Origin: Coriobacteriales bacterium
GTDB taxonomy: Bacteria > Actinomycetota > Coriobacteriia > Coriobacteriales > UBA8131
Reading direction: 5' to 3'
Assembly: GCA_031256715.1 (NCBI GenBank)
Contig: JAIRQA010000128.1
Location: 1 to 57,978 of the forward strand
Length of the DNA stretch: 57,978 bases
Shown: positions 1,293 to 56,895 of the stretch, piece by piece
How the letters are laid out: every line of letters starts with the position of its first letter
Numbering within the stretch: the stretch's first letter is position 1
The notes under the pieces: model-generated
Database searches by the model: none
What the model saw: only the letters and a program-made list of their open reading frames with translations
Told to the model about the DNA's origin: nothing
Made by a program: the position numbers and the translations under genes

Positions 1293-1344
1293 GCCAAAAC
1301 GCTTATGCATAACAAACTACTTATACCAAAAACGATATTACTAA

Positions 1345-1424
1345 CAAACGCTTATACTCGCAAAATGCTTGTACTCGCAAAATGCTTGTACTAGCAAATG
1401 CTTGTACTAGCAAACGCTTATACC
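1345..1424. repeat. 16-17 bp tandem array running into a stop codon
   Basis: Five degenerate units of the type CAAATGCTTGTACTAG follow each other. The rightmost unit overlaps the stop codon (1418-1420) of the minus-strand double glycosyltransferase. The period is not a multiple of three, and the array is almost entirely non-coding. There are no unique spacers, so it is not a CRISPR array. Confidence 0.85.
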
Positions 1425-9409: not shown

Positions 9410-10399
9410 TATAAAGCGCTGCCGTTCTGTAAGGTCGTTATGAATGACTATATCGTTGTAGGCCATGGCAGATAAGATATTGGCAGCACTGTCTAAACAT
9501 TGTTCATGCAGCTCACAAGCCAACAATCCACCTGGTTTTAAAAGCCTAGTTGCTTGTTTAGATAAAAGCTCAAAAACTCGTAAACCATCAACACCTCCGT
9601 CTAAGGCCTGTTTGTTTTCGAAATATCGCACTTCACATGGCAGCGTGTCTATTAAGTCACTGGGGATATAAGGCGGGTTAGAGACAACAACATCAAAACT
9701 CTTCTGATCTTGCGGGCTGGTAAGAAGTGAAGTTGCCAAATCATCCAGTAAAAAAGTGACTCTATTGCTTTGCGTCTTTTCTAGAAGCTGAGCGTTATCT
9801 TTGGCAAGCTCTAAAGCGCAGGCGTCATTATCAGTTGCCACAATTAAACAACACGGATGCTCATGAAGCAAAGAAAGTGCGATGCAACCTGTGCCTGTGC
9901 CCACATCTAGTACCTTTGGCTTGTCAAAAGAAGTTGTCTTCTCTAAATAAACAGCATTTGCATCAGACGTCCTAAAACTAACAGCATTTGCATCAGACGT
10001 CCTAAAGCTAGCCGCATTTTCCTGCGCATCCCCGGAAAAAAAAGCCTTAGTGGCACCGCCACAGACAAGCTCATCTAACACCAACTCTACCAACATCTCT
10101 GTCTCTGGACGTGGAATAAGCACAGGCGAACGCACTATTAACTCAAGGTGACGAAAGGGCGCATAACCCATAATGTATTGCAGAGGTTCATGTGCATCAC
10201 GCCTTTTGATGGCCTCACGCAAAGTAGCTCTTTCGTTAACGCTTAAAGGACGTTCGTAGTCTAAATATAGCTCCAACCGCGAAAGCCCTGTTGCATAAGC
10301 AAGAAGCTGTTGAGAAACAAGCCGCGGGTTATGCTCACCCGCTTTACTGAAGTGGTCAGTCGTCCACTCTAAGGCGGTATGTATGGTCCAGATGCTCAA
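9389..10399 (-). CDS. prmC: Peptide chain release factor N5-glutamine methyltransferase
   Basis: Methylates the glutamine of the GGQ motif in release factors RF1 and RF2. It has the N-terminal helical substrate-binding part (SRLELYLDYERPL, EPLQYIMGYAPF), an SAM-binding loop VLDVGTGTGCIAL, and the catalytic NPPYIP motif near residue 241. At 336 residues it is longer than usual (about 280), and much of the excess is a repeat insertion at residues about 130-149 just before the SAM-binding loop. The start is TTG, 12 bp after prfA, whose product is its substrate. Confidence 0.95.
   Translation of the reverse strand: MSIWTIHTALEWTTDHFSKAGEHNPRLVSQQLLAYATGLSRLELYLDYERPLSVNERATLREAIKRRDAHEPLQYIMGYAPFRHLELIVRSPVLIPRPETEMLVELVLDELVCGGATKAFFSGDAQENAASFRTSDANAVSFRTSDANAVYLEKTTSFDKPKVLDVGTGTGCIALSLLHEHPCCLIVATDNDACALELAKDNAQLLEKTQSNRVTFLLDDLATSLLTSPQDQKSFDVVVSNPPYIPSDLIDTLPCEVRYFENKQALDGGVDGLRVFELLSKQATRLLKPGGLLACELHEQCLDSAANILSAMAYNDIVIHNDLTERQRFITARNCS
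9951..10020 (-). repeat. In-frame 30-bp tandem repeat in prmC
   Basis: Two nearly identical 30-bp units (9951-9980, 9981-10010) plus a partial third encode SFRTSDANAV repeats. Near-identity of the copies suggests a recent duplication. It sits between the substrate-binding and SAM-binding parts. Confidence 0.93.
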
Positions 10400-10411
10400 G
10401 TTATACGACCA

Positions 10412-11503
10412 TTAAACTGCCTCAGCCAGACGCTGCGCCCTGTCTGCTGTAATAAGCGCTGTGATAAGCTCTTCTAATCCATTACCGCCAGCGCCTAAAA
10501 GAATGCCATTGTATGTGCCATTATAACCTATACGATGATCTGTAACTCTGTCCTGAGGACCGTTGTAAGTACGTATCTTTTCAGAACGATCTCCGGTGCC
10601 TATCTGCGAACGACGCTCTGCACCCAGCTCGGCTTGCATTTCTGCCAGCATCTTGTCGTAAAGACGAGCTCTAAGCACCTGCATTGCCGCCTCTTTATTT
10701 TGCAGTTGCGACTTTTGATCTTGAGATTGCACAACCAAACCAGTTGGTAAGTGCGTAATGCGAACTGCGGAATCGGTTGTATTCACGCACTGTCCTCCAG
10801 GGCCACCAGCACGGTAAACATCTATACGCAAATCGTTTTGATTAATTTCTACTTCAACTTCATCTGCCTCAGGCAAAACGGCTACTGTTGCCGTAGAAGT
10901 GTGAATGCGTCCTTGACTTTCGGTTTTAGGTACACGCTGCACTCTATGCACGCCACTTTCAAACTTCATCACAGAAAAAACCTTTTCGCCAGTGACTTTA
11001 AATTCAATTTGAGAATAGCCTCCGGCTTCAGAGGAAGAAGAGTCTAGCTGCTCTACGCGCCATTTGTGCTCATCGGCAAAGCGTACATACATCTTATAAA
11101 GATCCCCCGCAAAGATGGCGGCCTCATCTCCACCGGCACCGGCACGTATCTCTACAATAATGTCCTTGTCGTCGTTGGGATCTCCAGGAACCAACATCAG
11201 TTTAATCTCGTCTTCTAATGCCAAAAGACGTTCGCTAAGTAAGGTGATTTCTGCTTGGGCAAAATCCTTCATCTCGGGATCGTTTTCGCTCTTAAGTAAT
11301 TCGCGAGCTTGTTCTAAGTCCTCAGTAGACTGAACAAATTCTTTGGCCAAGCGCGCTAATTCAGACTGGCTAGCATGCTCTTTTGCTAGCCTTGTATACT
11401 CCTTCTGATCAGCTAAAACCTCTGGATCTCCCAGCTTTGCCTCAAGGTCGGCAAAGGTGCCTATAATATTTTGTAATTTATCGTACACTTTGTTCACCGT
11501 CAC
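10412..11503 (-). CDS. prfA: Peptide chain release factor 1
   Basis: Recognises UAA and UAG and releases the finished peptide. The GGQ motif is in [16 protein letters not shown]. The codon-reading tripeptide is PKT in [14 protein letters not shown], the P-x-T form that separates RF1 from RF2 (SPF). The length of 363 is standard. It overlaps pheT by 26 bp. The annotated GTG at 11503 is one of three close in-frame GTG codons (residues 1, 3, 6); no strong ribosome site separates them, and the third would match the usual N-terminus best. Confidence 0.97.
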
Positions 11504-14333
11504 AAGCTATATTGCCTAAAACATTTTCTGCTACATTTTTAACCGCGTTTTCAACTAAATTCTTGGCTGTCCTGTCATCGTCGCGGCCTTCTTCATTTTC
11601 ATGTACTTTACCATCTTCGCTGCCATCTTCACTTCCGCGAACTTTACCACCAGTCGCGGCAGTTAGTTTGCGTAAGACTTTGTTATGCAACTTGTCTACT
11701 TCATCGGCTGTAAGCGTGCGCTCAGAAGAGCGATACTCTAATGCGAATGCCAAAGACTGCTTGTTAACACCTAAGCGTTCAGTGTTTTTATAAACATCAA
11801 ATAGCCTGATGTTATAAAGCAATGCACCGGCCGCAGTGCGAATAACTTGCTCCACGCGCTCACAGCTAATAGCTGTATCTAGCGTGATTGCAATGTCGCG
11901 TTCTACAGCAGGATATTGCGGCACATCTTTATATTCACGCTTGGCATTTGCCGCAACAAGTAAAGCATTAAAATCTAGTTCAAAGGCAAGGACTGAAGCT
12001 TGCACATCAAAGTCACGAAGCACGAGGGGATGAATTTCTCCAACCCATCCTAATTGCAGCGATCCAACTAGAACACTTGCTGCGCGACCAGGTTGCAACC
12101 AAAACTCGTTTTGGCTGGATTCATCATTAGCTTCAATTTTACTTTCTAAAACTTTAAAGCGAGGAGCTTGACAATTTAGTTCACGTAGCAAAGACTGAAT
12201 GATGCCTTTGACGTCAAAGAAATCTATGCGTCGTGCAGTCTCGTTCCATTGTTGCTGATGCCAGCTTCCACAAAGAACGCAAGCTAACATTTTGCGTTCT
12301 CGAGGCAATTTGCGTCCCTCTGATGTAGAGAAAACCACTCCCGCCTCATAAAGGTGAACATCGTTGACACCATGATTAAGGTTATAGGCAACGCTGCGCA
12401 GCAAACCAGGGATAATGCTTTGGCGCATCACGCTTTGGTCGGCATTCATGGGATTAAGAAGTGAAACAGCTTTTTGATCTTTTGGTACAGGCAAGCGTAA
12501 AAGTTGCATGTCTTGCGGACTGGCAAAAGCATAGGTCATTGTTTCATTAATTCCCATTGCTCGCAAGCTTGCACCTATGCGTTCGCTCCTGATTTGTTCG
12601 ATACTAAAAAGCCCAATGCGACCAGCGCCTGTTGGTAAAGTTAAAGGTACGTTTTGCATGCCCCAGATACGTAAAATCTCTTCGTATAGATCAATTTCGC
12701 GCTCAAGGTCTGGGCGAAAGCTAGGTGGCGTAACATTATAAATATCTAAAGAATTGTCATTTGCACAAGAATTATCGTTAGCTGCCCTAGATACACTACA
12801 GCCCAAGCGCTCCAATATTGCTACTGCTTCGTCACTGGCTATGTCTGCGCCAATGAAGCGACGCAACCTATGGCAATCCAAGTTAAGTATTGGTAGTTCT
12901 TTGGGGTTAACATAGACATCTGCCAGACCTTCGCAGACTGTACCCCCCGCAACAAGTGCTATAAGCGCAGCCGCCCTTTGTGCAAAATCGCCACAAGTGG
13001 CTGCGTCTACACCACGCTCATAACGTCCTGCCGCCTCGCTAAAGAGTTGCAAGTTACGACTAGTGCGACTAGTGTGAGAAGAGCTGAATGTTGCTGACTC
13101 TAGAAGAATATTTGTTGTTGAGTTGGTAACCTCAGAGTCTAGACCGCCCATGACACCAGCTAACGCTATTGCCTGTGGTACACAGATAGCATCTGTGTTA
13201 TTTTCATTAGAACAACTGTCGTTACTAGTATTATCTTCAGATCTATATACGCTGTCTAAGTTTTTGTTATTGTTAAAGTTAGCTTTATTAACTTCTAAGA
13301 TAGCATTGCCATCGCTAATTACAGTAATATCGTTGCTTAGCGTGCGCTGAATGCCATCTAAAGTTGTGAACTTCTCGCCATCTATAGCAGCCCTAACAAC
13401 GATCTGCGCTTTACCATGGTCATCTTTTGCCAATGTGTCTAAGTCAAAGGCATGCAGCGGTTGTCCAAGCTCAAACATGATATAGTTTGTAGCGTCTACA
13501 ACATTGTTAATTGAGCGTGCTCCGGCAGCGGTTACGCGTTCAGCTAGCCACTGAGGAGATGGTCCAACTTTAACACCTCGGATGATAGCAGCAGTATAAC
13601 GTGAGCAGCGCGAAGCGTCATCGATCACAACCTTAACGCAATCTGTTGCTTTGCCATCTAGTTTTGGCTCATCAATCTGCTTGCCCAAGCTAAAATCTAC
13701 ATCATAAATAGCAGCGACTTCACGCGCTACGCCTAACATGCTCATGCAGTCTGGGCGATTAGGGGTTATCTCTAAATCAAACACGGTGTCACAGATGTCT
13801 AAGTAGCGAGCTATTGGCATACCAACTGGAGCATCTTTAGGCAAGATAAGTAATCCGGCATGGTCGTCGCCAAGCCCTAACTCTTTGGCAGAACAGTTCA
13901 TACCACAAGACTCTATGCCTCTAAGCTTGGCTTTTTTTATAATAAAATGGCCTTTGTCTTCTGTAGCGCTAGTATTAGGCATAATGGTTCCAACTGTGGC
14001 CACAGGCACCTTATCGCCTGCGTTAAAGTTTTGCGCACCACAAACTATTTGCAGCGGCTCATGAGCTATATTATTGCCAGCTATATTATTGTCGCTACTA
14101 TCATTGCAAGTTTTATTATTAGCGCCAACATCTACAGTAGTTACCCAAAGAGAGTCTGCATTAGGATGTGGTTTCTTTGTTAATATCTGACCTACGACAA
14201 TGCCATCCATTGTCGCACCTGTACTGCTAATGTCCTCAACAGCAGTACCTGTCATGTCTAAACGATCAGCAAACGCAGATATGTCATCTGGCACGCTCAC
14301 CATTGTCTTTAACCATTTATAACTTACTTTCAT
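11478..14333 (-). CDS. pheT: Phenylalanine-tRNA ligase beta subunit
   Basis: Beta subunit of the heterotetrameric PheRS: tRNA binding, editing and anticodon contact. It has an N-terminal EMAP-type domain (about residues 40-165), B3/B4 editing region with [11 protein letters not shown]5, a catalytic-like core (about 500-690), and a C-terminal ferredoxin-fold anticodon domain ([11 protein letters not shown]). At 951 residues it is about 150 longer than usual. The excess is in three places: a 15-bp repeat insertion near residues 80-90, an Asn/Ser-rich insert at about 345-385 just before IALAGVMGG, and a 55-residue acidic tail after the anticodon domain ([10 protein letters not shown]...). AGAGGAATTT precedes the ATG. 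It overlaps prfA. Confidence 0.97.
14064..14093 (-). repeat. In-frame 15-bp tandem repeat in the pheT EMAP domain
   Basis: GCTATATTATTGCCA (14064-14078) is followed by GCTATATTATTGTCG (14079-14093). It encodes an [10 protein letters not shown] insertion in the tRNA-binding domain. Confidence 0.75.
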
Positions 14334-21550: not shown

Positions 21551-23313
21551 TTGAACTCACTAAGTAGTTTGCATGCATGCTCTCTTGAGAGCTTATCAAC
21601 ATTACCAGAGAGCATACGCGCGATCTCGTCTATACGTTCGTCTTCGCCTAATCTACTGATTTGTGTAAACGTCTCACCGTTAACTATGTTTTTAGATACA
21701 AGCCAATGATCGCTTGAGCGTATAGCAATTTGAGGCAGATGCGTGACAACTAAAACCTGATGCGACTTTGCAAGTTGAGCAAGGCGATTAGCAACAGCTA
21801 CGGCTGTAGCGCCACCTATGCCTGCATCAATCTCGTCAAAAACAAGTGTCATGCTGTCGCCTAACTGTGATTGTACGCCACAAGTTGCTTGTTCGTCATG
21901 AGCCAATTGCTCATCATGGGTTGCTTGCTTATCATGTGTCGCTTTTCCGTCGTGTGCCAATTGTTCGTCATGAGCCAATTGCTCATCATGGGTTGCTTGT
22001 TTATCATGGGACAAGCTCTTAAGCGCCAGCATAACACGAGACAGCTCACCACCACTGGCAATTTTTGATAGCGCTCGCGCCTCTATATTTGCTGCGGGAC
22101 TATAAAGAAATTCTATAGACTCAGAGCCATTTGCCGACCAATCTTCAAACTCTAATTCGCTTAAGGAAATCTTAATGCTTGCTCCCGCCATGGCAAGTTC
22201 TTGTAATGCCTCACTTAGCTCAGCGCTAAGCCGTTTGGCAGTCAGTTTGCGTATTTTGCTAAGTTCAGAAGCTGCTTGGCACAAGTCATTTTTAGCGGCA
22301 ATTACTAACTGGCTGTGGCTTTCTAAAATTTGCTCGTAATTGTCGCTTCGCTCTAAAACCTGCTGTGCATCCTGAAAACGCGTAAAAACATCATTTATGC
22401 CAGGTCCAAAGCGCTTGCGAAGACCGTCTAGGGCATGAAGACGCTCAAATGTTTCCTGAAGGTCTTCAGCATTAAACTCTTTGTCCTTAGCATAGTCGCG
22501 AATGCTTATGGCTATTTCTTGCACAAGTGCCTCTATGTCTGTAAGTTGTTGTGCTATAGGCAACACGGTAGCATCAATAGCGGCAAGTTGAGCTGTCGCT
22601 TGCACGGCCTCTGCCAACTTATCGCGCGCTCCATCTTCTGCGTTTAGGGAGTTTAAGGCACGTTGGGCGCAATCGGCTATAGTGGCACCATTTTGCATTA
22701 AAGGCAACTGTTTTTCTAGGTTCTCGTACTCCCCCTCTTGCGGCGAAACCGCACCAATCTCATGTATTAAAAATTCGGCACGCTCCCGCTTGTCTTGCAG
22801 GTCATCTGCCTCAGACTTTAAGACTTCTAAAGCTTGCTTCGCATTTTGAAACGCTATATAGCTATCTTTATAGTATGCTAGCGAATCCTTAAGATCTGTG
22901 TCACCAAAACTATCTAAAACTTTACGGTGCGATGCGGCTTTTAGCAATGATTGATGCTCATGTTGTCCATAAAGATCTATACTGGAACCTAAAAGTGAGG
23001 CTAGCTCGCCAACACTTGCCAACTGGCCATCAAGTTTGCAGCGCGATCGACCATCTGCGCTAAGTTTGCGTGAAACAATATGTTCGCAACTGTCATCGAT
23101 CCATGCAATTGCCTCTACCTGTGCATCCTGACAGCCGCTTCGCACCATTGTAGAATCACCGCGTTCGCCAATTAAAAGTTTCAATGCGCTTAAAAGCGCT
23201 GTCTTGCCAGCACCAGTTTCACCAGTAAAAACAATTAAACCAGGCTCAGGCTTAAGCTCTAAAATGGCGTCTTTTATTAACGCAAGATCTTTTACATGCA
23301 AAAATTCAATCAT
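21547..23313 (-). CDS. recN: DNA repair protein RecN
   Basis: An SMC-like ATPase that acts at double-strand breaks. Walker A is FTGETGAGKTALL near residue 30; the coiled-coil region covers about 160-360; the ABC signature is KIASGGELSRVMLALK and Walker B is LVFDEIDAGIGG. Between signature and Walker B, where relatives need only a short turn, about 43 residues of HDEQxA repeats are inserted (residues about 433-475). The arms of the ATPase are otherwise complete, so the gene is probably functional. AAGG lies 6 bp before the ATG. nadK ends 3 bp upstream, and steA overlaps downstream. Confidence 0.95.
   Translation of the reverse strand: MIEFLHVKDLALIKDAILELKPEPGLIVFTGETGAGKTALLSALKLLIGERGDSTMVRSGCQDAQVEAIAWIDDSCEHIVSRKLSADGRSRCKLDGQLASVGELASLLGSSIDLYGQHEHQSLLKAASHRKVLDSFGDTDLKDSLAYYKDSYIAFQNAKQALEVLKSEADDLQDKRERAEFLIHEIGAVSPQEGEYENLEKQLPLMQNGATIADCAQRALNSLNAEDGARDKLAEAVQATAQLAAIDATVLPIAQQLTDIEALVQEIAISIRDYAKDKEFNAEDLQETFERLHALDGLRKRFGPGINDVFTRFQDAQQVLERSDNYEQILESHSQLVIAAKNDLCQAASELSKIRKLTAKRLSAELSEALQELAMAGASIKISLSELEFEDWSANGSESIEFLYSPAANIEARALSKIASGGELSRVMLALKSLSHDKQATHDEQLAHDEQLAHDGKATHDKQATHDEQLAHDEQATCGVQSQLGDSMTLVFDEIDAGIGGATAVAVANRLAQLAKSHQVLVVTHLPQIAIRSSDHWLVSKNIVNGETFTQISRLGEDERIDEIARMLSGNVDKLSREHACKLLSEFK
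21889..22014 (-). repeat. In-frame 18-bp tandem array (7 copies) in recN
   Basis: Seven 18-bp units follow without gaps from 21889. There is a higher-order 72-bp period: units 1-2 (21889-21924) are identical to units 5-6 (21961-21996). This shows at least two rounds of duplication. The units encode THDEQL, AHDEQL and THDKQA variants. Confidence 0.95.
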
Positions 23314-24203: not shown

Positions 24204-25127
24204 CTAACGATTATTAAATCTAGCATGCGCATCTAAAACAGTTGCGCTAACATCTATGTTAACATGATTTGCGGCTGTGTCTAGACCTTGAGTCTGTACA
24301 AATTGCATAAGAAAAAAGAATTCTATATTGCCCTTTGGACCGCGTAAATGTGAAACAGATAGCATTTTGGGCTGCCACCTGCTCTTTTGCGCTGCGTTAA
24401 GTACTTGACTTAATGCTTGTTCGTGCGCTTTAGCATCGATGATCACACCATCTTTAACCATCGATTTTGGCAATTCAAACTGAGGCTTACAAAGAGCTAT
24501 CAGAAAACTATCAAAATTATTACATGCGTCCACGTTATCTGCAGACACACCATGTTCTAAAGTTTCTGCAGACACACCGCGATTCACGACATCTGCGATC
24601 GCATCATGACCCAGATCACCGGCAAACTTCTGCAATATAGGCAACAAGCGTGAAAGTGGACTGAAGCTTACATCGGCAACTATCAAATTAAAGTGCGTAT
24701 TGCCTAGTTTAGAAAGTTCAATTTTAGAAATATTGCAACGTTCATATACACTAACACGCGCATCTTGTCGTAATTGCCAAGCAAGCTGACCATATGCAAC
24801 ATCTACAGCGGTAACATGCGCTGCGCCATGCTGCAAAAGGCAATCTGTAAAGCCTCCTGTAGAAGCACCAACATCTAAACAATTAAGACCTGAAACATCA
24901 AAATCAAAGTCAGACAAGGCACCTTCAAGTTTTATGCCACCACGAGAAACATATCTCTTCTCAACAATTACAGCTAAGTCGGCATCGGTTGCTATACGCA
25001 TTGCAGGGTGCTGTAAAACATCTGTACCACAGCGAACTTTTCCGGCATGTATTGCTCTACTGGCATCATCTATGCTAGCATAATAGCCTTTTTTAACCAA
25101 TAACTCGTCTAGCCGCAGCTTATTCAT
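24204..25127 (-). CDS. tlyA: TlyA family rRNA 2'-O-methyltransferase
   Basis: An S4 RNA-binding domain (LRLDELLVKKGYYASIDDASRAI) is joined to an FtsJ-like methyltransferase (CLDVGASTGGFTDCLLQHGA, VADVSFSPL). TlyA proteins methylate 16S and 23S rRNA riboses in actinobacteria; loss confers capreomycin resistance in mycobacteria. The length of 307 is slightly above normal because of a small repeat insertion at about 183-196. It lies 6 bp after dxs. Confidence 0.94.
   Translation of the reverse strand: MNKLRLDELLVKKGYYASIDDASRAIHAGKVRCGTDVLQHPAMRIATDADLAVIVEKRYVSRGGIKLEGALSDFDFDVSGLNCLDVGASTGGFTDCLLQHGAAHVTAVDVAYGQLAWQLRQDARVSVYERCNISKIELSKLGNTHFNLIVADVSFSPLSRLLPILQKFAGDLGHDAIADVVNRGVSAETLEHGVSADNVDACNNFDSFLIALCKPQFELPKSMVKDGVIIDAKAHEQALSQVLNAAQKSRWQPKMLSVSHLRGPKGNIEFFFLMQFVQTQGLDTAANHVNIDVSATVLDAHARFNNR
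24538..24578 (-). repeat. In-frame 27-bp repeat in tlyA
   Basis: TCTGCAGACACACC occurs at 24538-24551 and 24565-24578, a 27-bp period. It encodes GVSAETLE-HGVSADNVD in a surface loop of the methyltransferase domain. Confidence 0.7.
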
Positions 25128-49990: not shown

Positions 49991-51898
49991 TTAATGCCGA
50001 AAGTGACGATGACCGGTAAAGACAAGTGCAATGCCAGCTTCGTTAGCGGCAGCTATGACTTCCTCGTCACGAACAGAACCGCCGGGTTGAATTACGGCAA
50101 CAACGCCACCATCAGTTAACACTTTAAGTGAATCTGCAAATGGCATAAACGCGTCGCTGGCGGCTACAGCACCTTGAGCTAAATCACCAGCTTGTTTTAT
50201 GGCAAGCTCTGCCGAATTAACACGATTTGGCTGACCGGCTCCAATACCTATACTAGCATAATCTTTAGCTATTAAAATAGCATTGCTTTTAACTGACTTG
50301 CAAGCACGCCAGGCAAACAGTAACTCATCAAATTGTTCTGGTGTTGGCTTTACATCTGTAGGAAAAGAAAACTCGGCAGGATTTTCGTTTACAGAGTCGG
50401 CGGTCATAGCAAGTATGCCACCTTCTATACTGCGATATTCTAGCGACGCACCTGCAGGATTTATGCCCCCTGTTACAAGTATACGAGCACTAGGTTTTTG
50501 TTTAAGCAACTCTAACGCGCCATCTTCATACTCTGGCGCAACCATAGCCTCAATAAACTGACCGTTGTTAAAAATTGCTTGTACCAGTTCTGTTGTCACT
50601 GTTCTATTAAAAGCCATAACTCCGCCAAATGCGCTAACCGGGTCGCAATCATGTGCTTTTTGATAAGCAGCTGTTATGGAACTGTCTAAAGCTATTCCAC
50701 ATGGCGTAAGGTGCTTAACAATCACTGCCGCTGGCTTATCATTGGCACTGCAAAACTCTCGAACTGCCGCCCAAGCAGCATCTAGATCTAAATAATTATT
50801 GTAAGAAAGCTCCTTACCCTGAAGTTGCTTTGCGTTGGCAAGCAAATATTCGCTATTCTGCTTACCACAATCTGTGCTTGACCCAACGTAAAATGCTGCC
50901 TGCTGGTGCGGATTTTCTCCATAGCGTAAATTGGCGGACTTTCGTAAAAAGAGACGCTTATCGTTAGCAAAACTGTTAGTAAAACTGTTAGCAAAGCTGT
51001 TAGCAAAGCTGTCGCGTTGTGAATCGTCACCCTTTTGTGCATCATCACCCTTTTGCACATAACCACCATTTTGCGAATCACTACCCTGTGTGGCAAGCCA
51101 ACTATAAATAGCATTGTCATAGGCAGATGTTAGTTTAAATACCTCTAAAGCTAAGCTTTGACGCGTAGCATAACTTAAGCAACCGCCAAGCTCATGCATC
51201 TCTGCTATTATGCTAGCATAACTTTCGGGTGCAGTTACAACCGCAACCGATGCATGGTTTTTGGCAGCAGAGCGCAACATAGACGGTCCGCCGATATCTA
51301 TATTTTCTATGGCAAGTTCATAAGTAACGTCTGCGCGAGCAATTGTGGCTTCGAAGGCGTAAAGATTAACCACTACCATGTCTATCATGCCTATACCATG
51401 CTCGCTAGCTTGTTGCATGTGCTCTTGCAAGTCGCGCCTTGCAAGTAGACCACCATGTACGCGCGGGTGTAAAGTCTTTACTCGCCCATCCATCATCTCG
51501 GGAAAGCCGGTTAGTTCATCGATGGTCTTAACTGGCAATCCCGCATCTATTAATACCTTAGCTGTACCTCCGGTAGAGACAAGCTCCACAGCAAATTGCT
51601 CATGTAAGGCTTTAGCGAAGTTAACTATGCCTGATTTGTTGGTAACAGAGAGCAATGCGCGCTTAATTATCGGCTCTGATTTTAGGTCAGATTTGGTCTT
51701 TGTATCCAAATCCAGCTTAAGACCAGAATCTAGATTTGCGCAAGCGTCAGACTTAAGGTCAGAATCGGTATTTGCGCAAGCGTCAGACTTAAGACCAGAA
51801 TCGGGATTTGCGCAAGCGTCAGAATTAAGACCAGAATCGGGATTTGCGCAAGCGTCAGACCTAAGGTTGTATTCGGTTTTATTAAGAGCATCAGACAT
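49991..51898 (-). CDS. purH: Bifunctional AICAR formyltransferase / IMP cyclohydrolase
   Basis: Performs the last two steps of IMP synthesis, using 10-formyl-THF such as that made by fhs-fchA in this window. The N-terminal MGS-like cyclohydrolase part starts only at about residue 75 (RALLSVTNKSGIVNFAKALHEQF, ELTGFPEMMDGRVKTLHPRVHGGLL). The transformylase part has LRYGENPHQQAAFY, KQLQGKELSYNNYLDLDAAW, VKHLTPCGIA and DAFMPFADSL. At 635 residues it is about 115 longer than usual. The excess is two unrelated repeat arrays: one N-terminal, one just before LRYGENPHQ at the domain junction. AAAGGA lies 12 bp before the ATG, rather far. Confidence 0.96.
   Translation of the reverse strand: MSDALNKTEYNLRSDACANPDSGLNSDACANPDSGLKSDACANTDSDLKSDACANLDSGLKLDLDTKTKSDLKSEPIIKRALLSVTNKSGIVNFAKALHEQFAVELVSTGGTAKVLIDAGLPVKTIDELTGFPEMMDGRVKTLHPRVHGGLLARRDLQEHMQQASEHGIGMIDMVVVNLYAFEATIARADVTYELAIENIDIGGPSMLRSAAKNHASVAVVTAPESYASIIAEMHELGGCLSYATRQSLALEVFKLTSAYDNAIYSWLATQGSDSQNGGYVQKGDDAQKGDDSQRDSFANSFANSFTNSFANDKRLFLRKSANLRYGENPHQQAAFYVGSSTDCGKQNSEYLLANAKQLQGKELSYNNYLDLDAAWAAVREFCSANDKPAAVIVKHLTPCGIALDSSITAAYQKAHDCDPVSAFGGVMAFNRTVTTELVQAIFNNGQFIEAMVAPEYEDGALELLKQKPSARILVTGGINPAGASLEYRSIEGGILAMTADSVNENPAEFSFPTDVKPTPEQFDELLFAWRACKSVKSNAILIAKDYASIGIGAGQPNRVNSAELAIKQAGDLAQGAVAASDAFMPFADSLKVLTDGGVVAVIQPGGSVRDEEVIAAANEAGIALVFTGHRHFRH
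50964..51074 (-). repeat. In-frame 12-bp and 18-bp arrays in the purH domain junction
   Basis: Four 12-bp units (from 50964, 50976, 50988 and 51000) encode SFAN, SFAN, SFTN and SFAN. Next to them three 18-bp units (from 51021, 51039 and 51057) encode GDDSQR/GDDAQK/GGYVQK types. Two unrelated arrays lie side by side. Confidence 0.9.
51716..51859 (-). repeat. In-frame 36-bp tandem array (4 copies) at the purH N-terminus
   Basis: Four 36-bp units start at 51716, 51752, 51788 and 51824. They encode SDACANPDSGLK variants. Copies differ at one to four positions. Flanking sequence on both sides is a more degenerate continuation. Confidence 0.95.
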
Positions 51899-55082: not shown

Positions 55083-55171
55083 ATTTGTATTATAAGCAAT
55101 GTTGCTAGAAATGCACCAATTTGATTGATGGCAAAATCTTGTGGAGCACCCACGCTATCGCCTATGCAATC

Positions 55172-55231
55172 ATGCACGCAGTCTTGCGTACAGACATGCA
55201 CGCAGATATGCATACAGATATGCATACAGAC
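55172..55231. repeat. 12-bp tandem array between divergent genes
   Basis: Five 12-bp units of the type ATGCATACAGAT run from 55172. ATGCAT within the unit is itself a palindrome. The array lies between the ECF promoter and the antiporter start codon, so it could hold repeated regulator sites or be simple slippage. Confidence 0.85.
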
Positions 55232-55275
55232 AACTTTGTCACCAACTTTTATTGATGCTTTTCAGAAAGAGGCAT

Positions 55276-56895
55276 ATGTTTACCGCACTAATACTTGGTT
55301 CGTTAATAGTTATAGTCTGCATTGCCGCGTCATCTACACTTAAGCGCTTTGGCGTTCCGGCACTAATTATGTTTTTAATTTTGGGACTTTTGGCAGGCTG
55401 GGTTGGTCCATGGGGACCAATTTATTATGACGATTATGAATTTGCCGAAAACATCTGCTCTATAGCTTTAGTCTTTATAATATTTTATGGCGGCTTTGGC
55501 ACCAACTGGAAGACCGCAAGACCAGTTCTTGGCGAAAGCATAATATATTCGACACTAGGTGTTTTAATAACTGCGGGCATAGTTACACTTTTCATGCATT
55601 TTGTCTTTGCCATTGGCTGGGCAGAGAGTTTCTTAATTGGCTCTGTTGTTTCTTGTATAGATGCGGCTTCTATCTTTTCTATCCTTCGCTCAGAGAAACT
55701 TTCGTTGCGCTTTAACACTGCATCGGTTTTAGAGATTGAAGGCGGTTGCAATGATTTACCTGCCTATATACTTACACTTGCGGCATTAATTATTCTTATT
55801 GGCGAAAATGCCACAACTGTTTTTACTAGCATGCTAGTACAACTTATTGTTGGTGTCTGCGTAGGAATTGTTATTGCCATAGGTACCGTTTGGATATTAA
55901 AAAAAGTTGGACATCACCTACATGAAGGCATGAACTTGCTTTTAGTTCTTGCGGTCTCTGTACTATCCTATGCCTTGGCAGAATTCTTTAGTGGAGCAGG
56001 CTATTTAGCAACTTATCTTTGCGGAATTATCTTAGGTAATGCAAAAATCCCAAAAAGAGCGCATATTGTTACCCTGTTTGACTCTATAGACTGGTTAGCG
56101 CAGATTATGATTTTTTTCTTGTTGGGTTTAATGGCTGTGCCAGAACGTCTGCCCTCAATGATAGTTCCCGCTCTGACTCTTACTATATTTCTAGTAGTAG
56201 TTGCAAGACCAATTGCCACTTTTGCCATATTCCCACTGTTTAAACCTGATGGCATTCGCAATGGTTGGCGCAAATGTCTGTTTATATCTTGGGCAGGCAT
56301 ACGCGGCGCGGCATCCATTGTTTTTGTCTTTCTTGCGTTGTCGTCTGAGGCACATTTGCAAACCGATCTTTTTTCCTTAATCTTTATTGTCGCTTTACTT
56401 TCTATAACCGTTCAGGGTACGCTTTTTCCGCAAATGGCTAAATGGCTAAATATGGTGGACACAGAAAGTGATTATCATCTTTCGTTTAACGACTTTCAGG
56501 AACAGAGCGCACATTCGTTTTTTCGCATTGCCATTAATGAAGAACATGGTTGGGCCAACCGCCAAATAAAGGAGATTCCAGTTGGCGACAGCTTGCTTAT
56601 AGTAATGATTAAACGTGGTTCGCGCACGGTGACACCACGGGGCGACACAAAAATATTGCCAGGCGATGTCGTGGTTTTATCTGGTGAGCAATATACAGGC
56701 GATGCTAACACACAAATAACTCAGTTTTTAGTTGAGGCAAATAGCGAATGGTCTGATAAACAGATTAAGGATTTAACTATTCCCGCAAACACTTTAATAG
56801 TTAGTGTTGTGCGCGAAGATGGCAGTGCAGTAACGCCTAAAGGTTGGGTGCGCATACACACAGGTGACACATTGACACTCTTTAATTGGGATTAG
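55276..56895 (+). CDS. CPA-type K+(or Na+)/H+ antiporter with two TrkA-C domains (NhaP2-like)
   Basis: Residues 1-about 385 form twelve or more membrane helices with antiporter motifs (VPALIMFLILGLLAG, VVSCIDAASIFSILRSEKL, ASVLEIEGGCNDLPAY with its ND pair). Two RCK_C/TrkA-C domains follow (GDSLLIVMIKRGSRTVTPRGDTKILPGDVVVL; NTLIVSVVREDGSAVTPKGWVRIHTGDTL), which bind nucleotides or ions to regulate transport. The open frame extends 45 codons upstream, but those residues are Arg/Tyr/His repeats from the 12-bp array; the ATG at 55276 is preceded by GAAAGAGG and begins a proper helix. It belongs to the group of E. coli CvrA/NhaP2. Confidence 0.92.
   Translation: MFTALILGSLIVIVCIAASSTLKRFGVPALIMFLILGLLAGWVGPWGPIYYDDYEFAENICSIALVFIIFYGGFGTNWKTARPVLGESIIYSTLGVLITAGIVTLFMHFVFAIGWAESFLIGSVVSCIDAASIFSILRSEKLSLRFNTASVLEIEGGCNDLPAYILTLAALIILIGENATTVFTSMLVQLIVGVCVGIVIAIGTVWILKKVGHHLHEGMNLLLVLAVSVLSYALAEFFSGAGYLATYLCGIILGNAKIPKRAHIVTLFDSIDWLAQIMIFFLLGLMAVPERLPSMIVPALTLTIFLVVVARPIATFAIFPLFKPDGIRNGWRKCLFISWAGIRGAASIVFVFLALSSEAHLQTDLFSLIFIVALLSITVQGTLFPQMAKWLNMVDTESDYHLSFNDFQEQSAHSFFRIAINEEHGWANRQIKEIPVGDSLLIVMIKRGSRTVTPRGDTKILPGDVVVLSGEQYTGDANTQITQFLVEANSEWSDKQIKDLTIPANTLIVSVVREDGSAVTPKGWVRIHTGDTLTLFNWD

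Follow-up and report, generated by a model that had tools for sequence, protein, structure and literature searches.

A coding minisatellite between the ABC signature motif and Walker B of RecN in an array-rich Coriobacteriales genome

Introduction

Does a tandem repeat placed between two ATPase motifs of RecN alter the enzyme, or is it simply tolerated there? This question is raised by a stretch of 57,978 nucleotides from a Coriobacteriales bacterium (hereafter the window), in which the recN gene carries an array of 18-bp units between the ABC signature motif and Walker B. The original prediction, made from the letters of the window, was that the array would separate in sequence two motifs that must come together in the ATP site, might tune or impair double-strand break repair, and might influence duplication rates elsewhere. 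We analyzed the array, the predicted structure of its host protein, the same linker in related RecNs, and the distribution of similar arrays in this genome and in its relatives.

Materials and Methods

The window is one contig (G000:C139) of a 2.66-Mb draft genome consisting of 145 contigs. In the counts below, the family denotes 25 genomes (G000-G024, with G000 being the genome of the window), and the order sample denotes 40 genomes (G000-G039), among which the genus is represented by G000 only. The completeness is 78% for G000 and 51-93% in the family, and every absence reported below is weakened by this incompleteness. Arrays were called by TRF with a score of at least 50 and a period of 9-100. 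ORFs were defined as the longest non-overlapping frames of at least 100 residues and are not curated genes. The stretches of the relatives were picked around recN, purH or recJ or from arbitrary contigs, and some of them were tiny (4.2 kb in G011 and 5.0 kb in G003). In the RecN alignment, 56 of 60 loci were retained, the others being two partial loci and two duplicates of the same genomes; 28 of 30 rows were retained for PurH and 25 of 30 for PheT. The linker segment of RecN was measured from SGGELSR to five residues beyond FDEIDAG. AlphaFold2 was run with 26 native sequences.

Results

The host gene

The product of the array-bearing gene matched the RecN family model TIGR00634 with an E-value of 6e-117. 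The match was split into two stretches, and its score (391.9 bits) was slightly lower than the cut-off (407.85). The gene lies downstream of tlyA and a nadK-like gene, the latter label being read off the protein, and upstream of steA. The host is RecN, and the array is located between the signature motif and Walker B (Table 1). In an alignment of 26 RecNs, the residues of Walker A, the signature motif and Walker B were conserved in the array-bearing protein. As judged from RecN, the closest named relatives are five metagenome-assembled genomes of Coriobacteriia/Coriobacteriales, with identities of 35-43% in the best segment and 43-46% across the alignment. From the isolate names, we suspect that these five are termite-gut bins.

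The neighboring TlyA (24204-25127) likewise gave a split match to its family model; the best stretch ends at residue 168, and there are two stretches in all, with a score of 170 against an equivalog cut-off of 250. Its translation leads us to suspect an insert past that residue.

Table 1. Features of the window, with coordinates counted from its first letter.
Feature	Position	Strand	Basis
Array outside ORFs, periods 16-17/33	1297-1423	.	TRF; contrast with coding arrays
30-bp array in prmC (336 aa)	9950-10019	-	TRF
pheT, 951 aa; in-frame arrays 14064-14120 and 11576-11660	11478-14333	-	TRF
recN, SMC-like DNA repair ATPase, 588 aa	21547-23313	-	TIGR00634; predicted head vs 4aby_B
Walker B strand and catalytic Glu, LVFDEID (aa 490-496)	21826-21846	-	F492, D493, E494, D496 invariant in 26 RecNs; modelled strand 489-493
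aa 463-485, pLDDT <50; array end and unique tail	21859-21927	-	AlphaFold2 model
Seven 18-bp units, HDKQAT HDEQLA HDEQLA HDGKAT HDKQAT HDEQLA HDEQAT	21883-22008	-	Unit comparison; TRF
ABC signature SGGELSR (aa 420-426)	22036-22056	-	S420, G421, G422, E423, R426 invariant in 26 RecNs
Walker A GETGAGKT (aa 31-38)	23200-23223	-	G31, E32, T33, G34, G36, K37 invariant in 26 RecNs
purH, 635 aa; in-frame arrays 51716-51865 (N terminus), 51017-51073 and 50963-51012 (one loop)	49991-51898	-	TRF

The repeat array

TRF called the array at 21907-22010 with a period of 18 and a score of 61 (64 on the coding strand). None of 500 codon shuffles of recN attained a score of 61, the best being 52. The array is thus a coding minisatellite, in which tandem in-frame units occur beyond chance. 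The seven units proposed originally, at 21889-22014, are the same array in another phase, 6 bp away from the HDxxxx phase adopted here.

Pairwise identity across the seven units ranges from 9 to 18 of 18 bases, and most units are distinct; unit 4 shares 9-13 of 18 bases with the others. Of the codon differences between neighboring units, 10 are synonymous and 14 nonsynonymous. The 72-bp higher-order repeat was likewise found as described: units 1 and 5 agree at 17 of 18 bases and units 2 and 6 at all 18. Units 1-2 and 5-6 share 35 of their 36 bases, so duplication of a block of about four units probably took place once the units had diverged. The 72-bp repeat records at least one subsequent duplication within the array, and the interior of the array suggests that it is mutable. 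A search of the genome for a second copy of the array DNA returned its own locus only, with the next match being 21 bases at 90% identity (E 0.35).

Predicted structure of the insert

The structural position of the insert was taken from the AlphaFold2 model (mean pLDDT 89.2) and is a predicted one. The model shows an SMC-like head with a coiled coil, as in RecN of Deinococcus. The signature helix spans residues 421-460. Of the array residues (436-477), 25 of 42 were modelled as helix with a pLDDT of about 74-85; because the other rows of the alignment have gaps in those columns, this helical part was modelled from a single sequence. In the insert-free relative L033, modelled with the same sequences, helix 420-433 is followed by a loop of eight residues and a strand at 442-446, and the other main elements occur in the same order. 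Against the Deinococcus RecN head (4aby_B), the models with and without the insert (L033) gave Z-scores of 39.7 and 39.9 and rmsd values of 2.2 and 2.0, respectively, with 358 residues aligned in each case, 358 of 361 for the insert-bearing protein. Against the longer chain 4ad8, with 449 residues aligned in both cases, the corresponding values were Z 31.1 and rmsd 5.8 with the insert, and Z 34.7 and rmsd 2.5 without it. A different coiled-coil angle would be enough to produce the poorer fit of the insert-bearing model.

In ABC ATPases, the signature motif opens its helix and the catalytic glutamate ends the Walker B strand. With the signature at the start of the helix and the glutamate at the end of the strand, the insert would bridge the two ends that face away from the nucleotide. 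The signature and the first unit are about 13 helical residues apart, which corresponds by arithmetic to roughly 20 Å at 1.5 Å per residue. The array is therefore between the two motifs in sequence, as had been claimed, but is not thereby predicted to be located in the ATP site. In the model, it lengthens the signature helix at its far end and continues into a disordered loop, apparently leaving the ATP site undisturbed. The alternative envisaged beforehand, namely a disordered loop far from the nucleotide, agrees with the models in part: residues 463-485 are predicted to be disordered and the fit to 4aby is about equal with and without the insert, but more than half of the array is modelled as helix, and the distance from the nucleotide is argued from the architecture.

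The same linker in other RecNs

The linker segment is 36-42 residues long in 53 of the 56 RecNs, so that most relatives lack an enlargement at this site. It is 50 residues in G017, 69 in G009 and 84 in G000. Compared with the typical 38 residues, the linker of G000 is longer by 46, of which the array contributes 42; the earlier estimate of about 43 inserted residues was therefore close. The inserts of G009 and G017 are unrelated to the array of G000, and the surplus in G009 consists of a PTP repeat (a 9-bp array by TRF). In the RecN tree, G009 groups with G017 as its sister and G000 requires a change of its own, which gives at least two changes, although the composition of G000 is unusual and its nearest branches are weakly supported. 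The array at the recN linker of G009 (L064, 10685-10721) is the only one in the 49.3 kb sampled from that genome, where sampling was partly centred on recN.

Internal RecN inserts of at least six residues were found in 7 of 18 same-family rows, in none of 11 rows from other families of the order, and in 2 of the remaining 27 rows. Within the family, they occur at residue 75, at residue 226, in the signature-Walker B linker and at residue 546. The three sites other than the linker fall in modelled turns. Two of these turns connect strands (63-73 to 76-85 at residue 75, and 535-544 to 547-554 at residue 546), and the one at residue 226 connects helices 209-224 and 229-244.

Arrays in other genes and the frame filter

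Arrays in the window are also hosted by PheT, PurH, PrmC, a glycosyltransferase, an ABC-transporter ORF and a sodium/proton exchanger. In the loop of the AICARFT domain of PurH, several of the 28 rows bear long, mutually unrelated low-complexity stretches. PheT carries a 37-residue insert near residue 344, which TRF does not call as an array, and inserts at residue 524 were seen in 6 of 25 PheT rows. The picture in PurH and PheT is similar to that in RecN. An array with periods of 12/24 (55171-55232) lies at the 5' end of the ABC-transporter ORF on the minus strand and also within an opposite ORF (55141-56895, plus strand).

In 346.8 kb sampled from G000 (13% of the genome), 163 arrays were found, or 47 per 100 kb. 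A total of 101 arrays fell in 65 of 248 long ORFs, and 62 were outside ORFs. The period was divisible by three in 95 of the 101 arrays in ORFs, compared with 20 of the 62 outside (Fisher p 2e-17), the latter proportion being that expected by chance. Periods of 12-36 bp accounted for 80 of the 101. Single Markov shuffles of the window and of the genome sample contained no array; shuffles of the stretches from 20 relatives contained six in total, and 100 kb of E. coli K-12 contained one. For the 60 ORF arrays listed, comparison by eye showed different unit peptides from locus to locus.

Single-base codon changes among array copies were counted in 74 of the 95 in-frame arrays; in the other 21, the copies were less than 75% identical or of insufficient length, and the recN array was among them because its units have diverged too far. 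The nonsynonymous to synonymous counts were 164/81 against an expected ratio of 3.16, a relative value of 0.64 (p 0.001). The copies are therefore translated and mildly constrained, and their peptides are not wholly free to vary.

The 39 relatives together yielded 150 arrays in 1200 kb (12.5 per 100 kb), and the frame filter was evident there too (104 of 119 arrays in ORFs against 12 of 31 outside, p 1e-7). Within the family, the density ranged from zero in 64.2 kb of G001 to 17 arrays in 35.3 kb of G007 (48.1 per 100 kb); it was 40.0 per 100 kb in G004 (16 arrays in 40.0 kb) and 2.0 in G009. GC content was not associated with array density (Spearman 0.17, p 0.28).

Repair genes and array density

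In profile searches, canonical MutS1, MutL and NucS were over the cut-off in none of the 40 genomes of the order. Matches below the cut-off were partial MutS-like ones in five genomes, weak ones to the MutL model in 37 and weak ones to NucS in four; the MutS-like matches are C-terminal and belong to five family genomes including that of the window (G000:C39). Being common to all 40, the lack of these proteins cannot explain the spread in array density, and mismatch-repair loss was rejected as a distinguishing cause. It may, nevertheless, set the stage for the arrays.

RecJ was matched in 36 of the 40 genomes, in 33 of them over the cut-off. The RecJ frame of G000 (G000:C8:341-1966) has 696 residues, compared with 1001-1391 residues for the best frame in 28 of the 36 matched genomes, possibly owing to a contig end.

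SbcCD is a nuclease pair that acts on hairpins. SbcD was over the cut-off in nine of the 40 genomes; among the 25 of the family, this was the case in G001 only, with a weaker match in G006. As the SbcC model was over the cut-off in none of the 40 genomes and in only one of 14 controls, SbcC was called at E <=1e-35, which identified the same nine genomes. Arrays were rarer where SbcCD was present (10 in 244 kb) than where it was absent (303 in 1303 kb; one-sided Mann-Whitney p 0.014). The difference lost significance when only genomes outside the family were compared (p 0.19). Exceptions occur in both directions: G028 has SbcCD and 20 arrays per 100 kb (4 in 20 kb), and G009, G013, G015, G019 and G022 in the family have few arrays despite lacking SbcCD. 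Since the association is confounded by kinship, it is a lead only. G001, the sole family genome with SbcD over the cut-off and a convincing SbcC, contained no array in its 64.2 kb of sampled sequence.

Discussion

We consider it likely that this coding minisatellite originated within recN itself and is tolerated in an extendable connection, as one product of genome-wide duplication filtered by reading frame. Short segments would duplicate in tandem at a high rate and at many unrelated sites, with slippage or template switching as the putative source. Within genes, duplications that break the frame would be purged and multiples of three would survive. Duplications in folded cores would presumably be purged as well, whereas those in loops, linkers and termini would stay, grow and drift under weak constraint. 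The recN array would be a survivor of this process, built by repeated tandem duplication in place, and its copy number may still be changing. It would persist because the C-terminal end of the signature helix and the loop to Walker B tolerate extra length. The protein most likely still binds and hydrolyses ATP. It should be noted that the enlarged linkers of three same-family RecNs could reflect a function, which would run counter to this explanation.

Such a function would be expected if the array were a VNTR whose copy number sets the length of the signature helix or loop and thereby alters head engagement or partner binding. The array sits on the signature helix, which bears head-head contacts in ABC ATPases; it is partly modelled as a helical extension, and the enlargement recurs in the three RecNs. 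However, the contents of these linkers are unrelated across genomes, RecN accepts inserts at residues 75, 226 and 546 as well, many unrelated enzymes carry arrays, and the predicted head is similar with or without the insert. We therefore regard functional tuning as improbable. A stronger version of the proposal is that the array impairs RecN and that the resulting repair defect raises tandem duplication elsewhere, in keeping with a genome rich in arrays. The relatives speak against this: arrays are frequent in G004, G007 and G012, whose linkers are normal, and G009 combines an enlarged linker with few arrays. On this comparison of linker with density, RecN impairment was rejected as the cause of the genome-wide arrays, and with the motif residues intact we give this reading very little credence. 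The suggestion that the array tunes or impairs double-strand break repair thus found no positive support in the models or the motifs, and the relatives lend none to an influence on duplication elsewhere.

At first sight, the in-frame inserts resemble one another across many unrelated genes, as they would if a mobile or palindromic element, similar to those of Rickettsia, had been inserted in frame and then multiplied. The array DNA is single-copy, and on this uniqueness such an origin was rejected for the recN array; the unit peptides also differ between loci. This is the least credible of the explanations weighed here. It is scarcely more probable that the array is an artefact of the draft assembly. 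Repeats are hard to assemble and the genome is fragmented and incomplete, and the exact copy number in recN may be wrong. Most units nevertheless differ from each other, the frame is open, nearly all ORF arrays in G000 are in frame, and the relatives show the same habit.

In-place origin of the recN array under a frame filter, which we prefer, might be part of a broader pattern. The family, probably within Coriobacteriales, would be in a regime of high tandem duplication caused by missing repeat-policing functions (canonical MutS1, MutL and NucS, found nowhere in the order sample, and SbcCD, not found in 24 of 25 family genomes), and would continually add repeat-built loops to core enzymes including RecN. 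We think this unlikely as it stands, though less so than any of the rivals above. If it were true, proteome-wide growth of loops, RecN included, would be a running experiment in protein evolution. As family members extend from G001, with zero arrays in 64.2 kb, to G007, with about 48 per 100 kb in 35.3 kb, a comparison among relatives could probe the genetic control of tandem duplication.

The single array is a modest curiosity; it would mean, provided that the protein is active, that RecN can accommodate about 46 additional residues in the signature helix and its loop. The wider pattern outweighs it, with about 47 arrays per 100 kb, a near-perfect frame filter and housekeeping enzymes among the hosts. 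Such an array-dense genome is a natural laboratory for the entry of new loops into proteins. Among the matches listed from the open-access literature, the titles and the openings of the abstracts contained no report of such a pattern.

The protein resembles known RecN (TIGR00634; Deinococcus radiodurans 4aby and 4ad8) in its full-length match, its Walker A, signature and Walker B residues and its predicted head fold. It differs from a typical RecN by the added residues between signature and Walker B and by a family score just below the cut-off. Rickettsia palindromic elements (PMC10969869) are about 150 bp long, form families of dispersed copies and sit in frame within a range of unrelated metabolic genes. 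The inserts of the present genome share with them the in-frame placement in diverse genes; unlike the elements described there, the recN array is without a dispersed copy and the units vary between loci. The coding minisatellites and VNTRs of bacteria share the tandem in-frame units, the imperfect copies and the higher-order duplication. As genes richest in variable segments, PMC2884548 names ftsK of E. coli and those for surface proteins of S. aureus. In contrast to bacterial coding minisatellites in general, the arrays of the present genome are dense and also occur in core enzymes such as RecN, PurH, PheT and PrmC.
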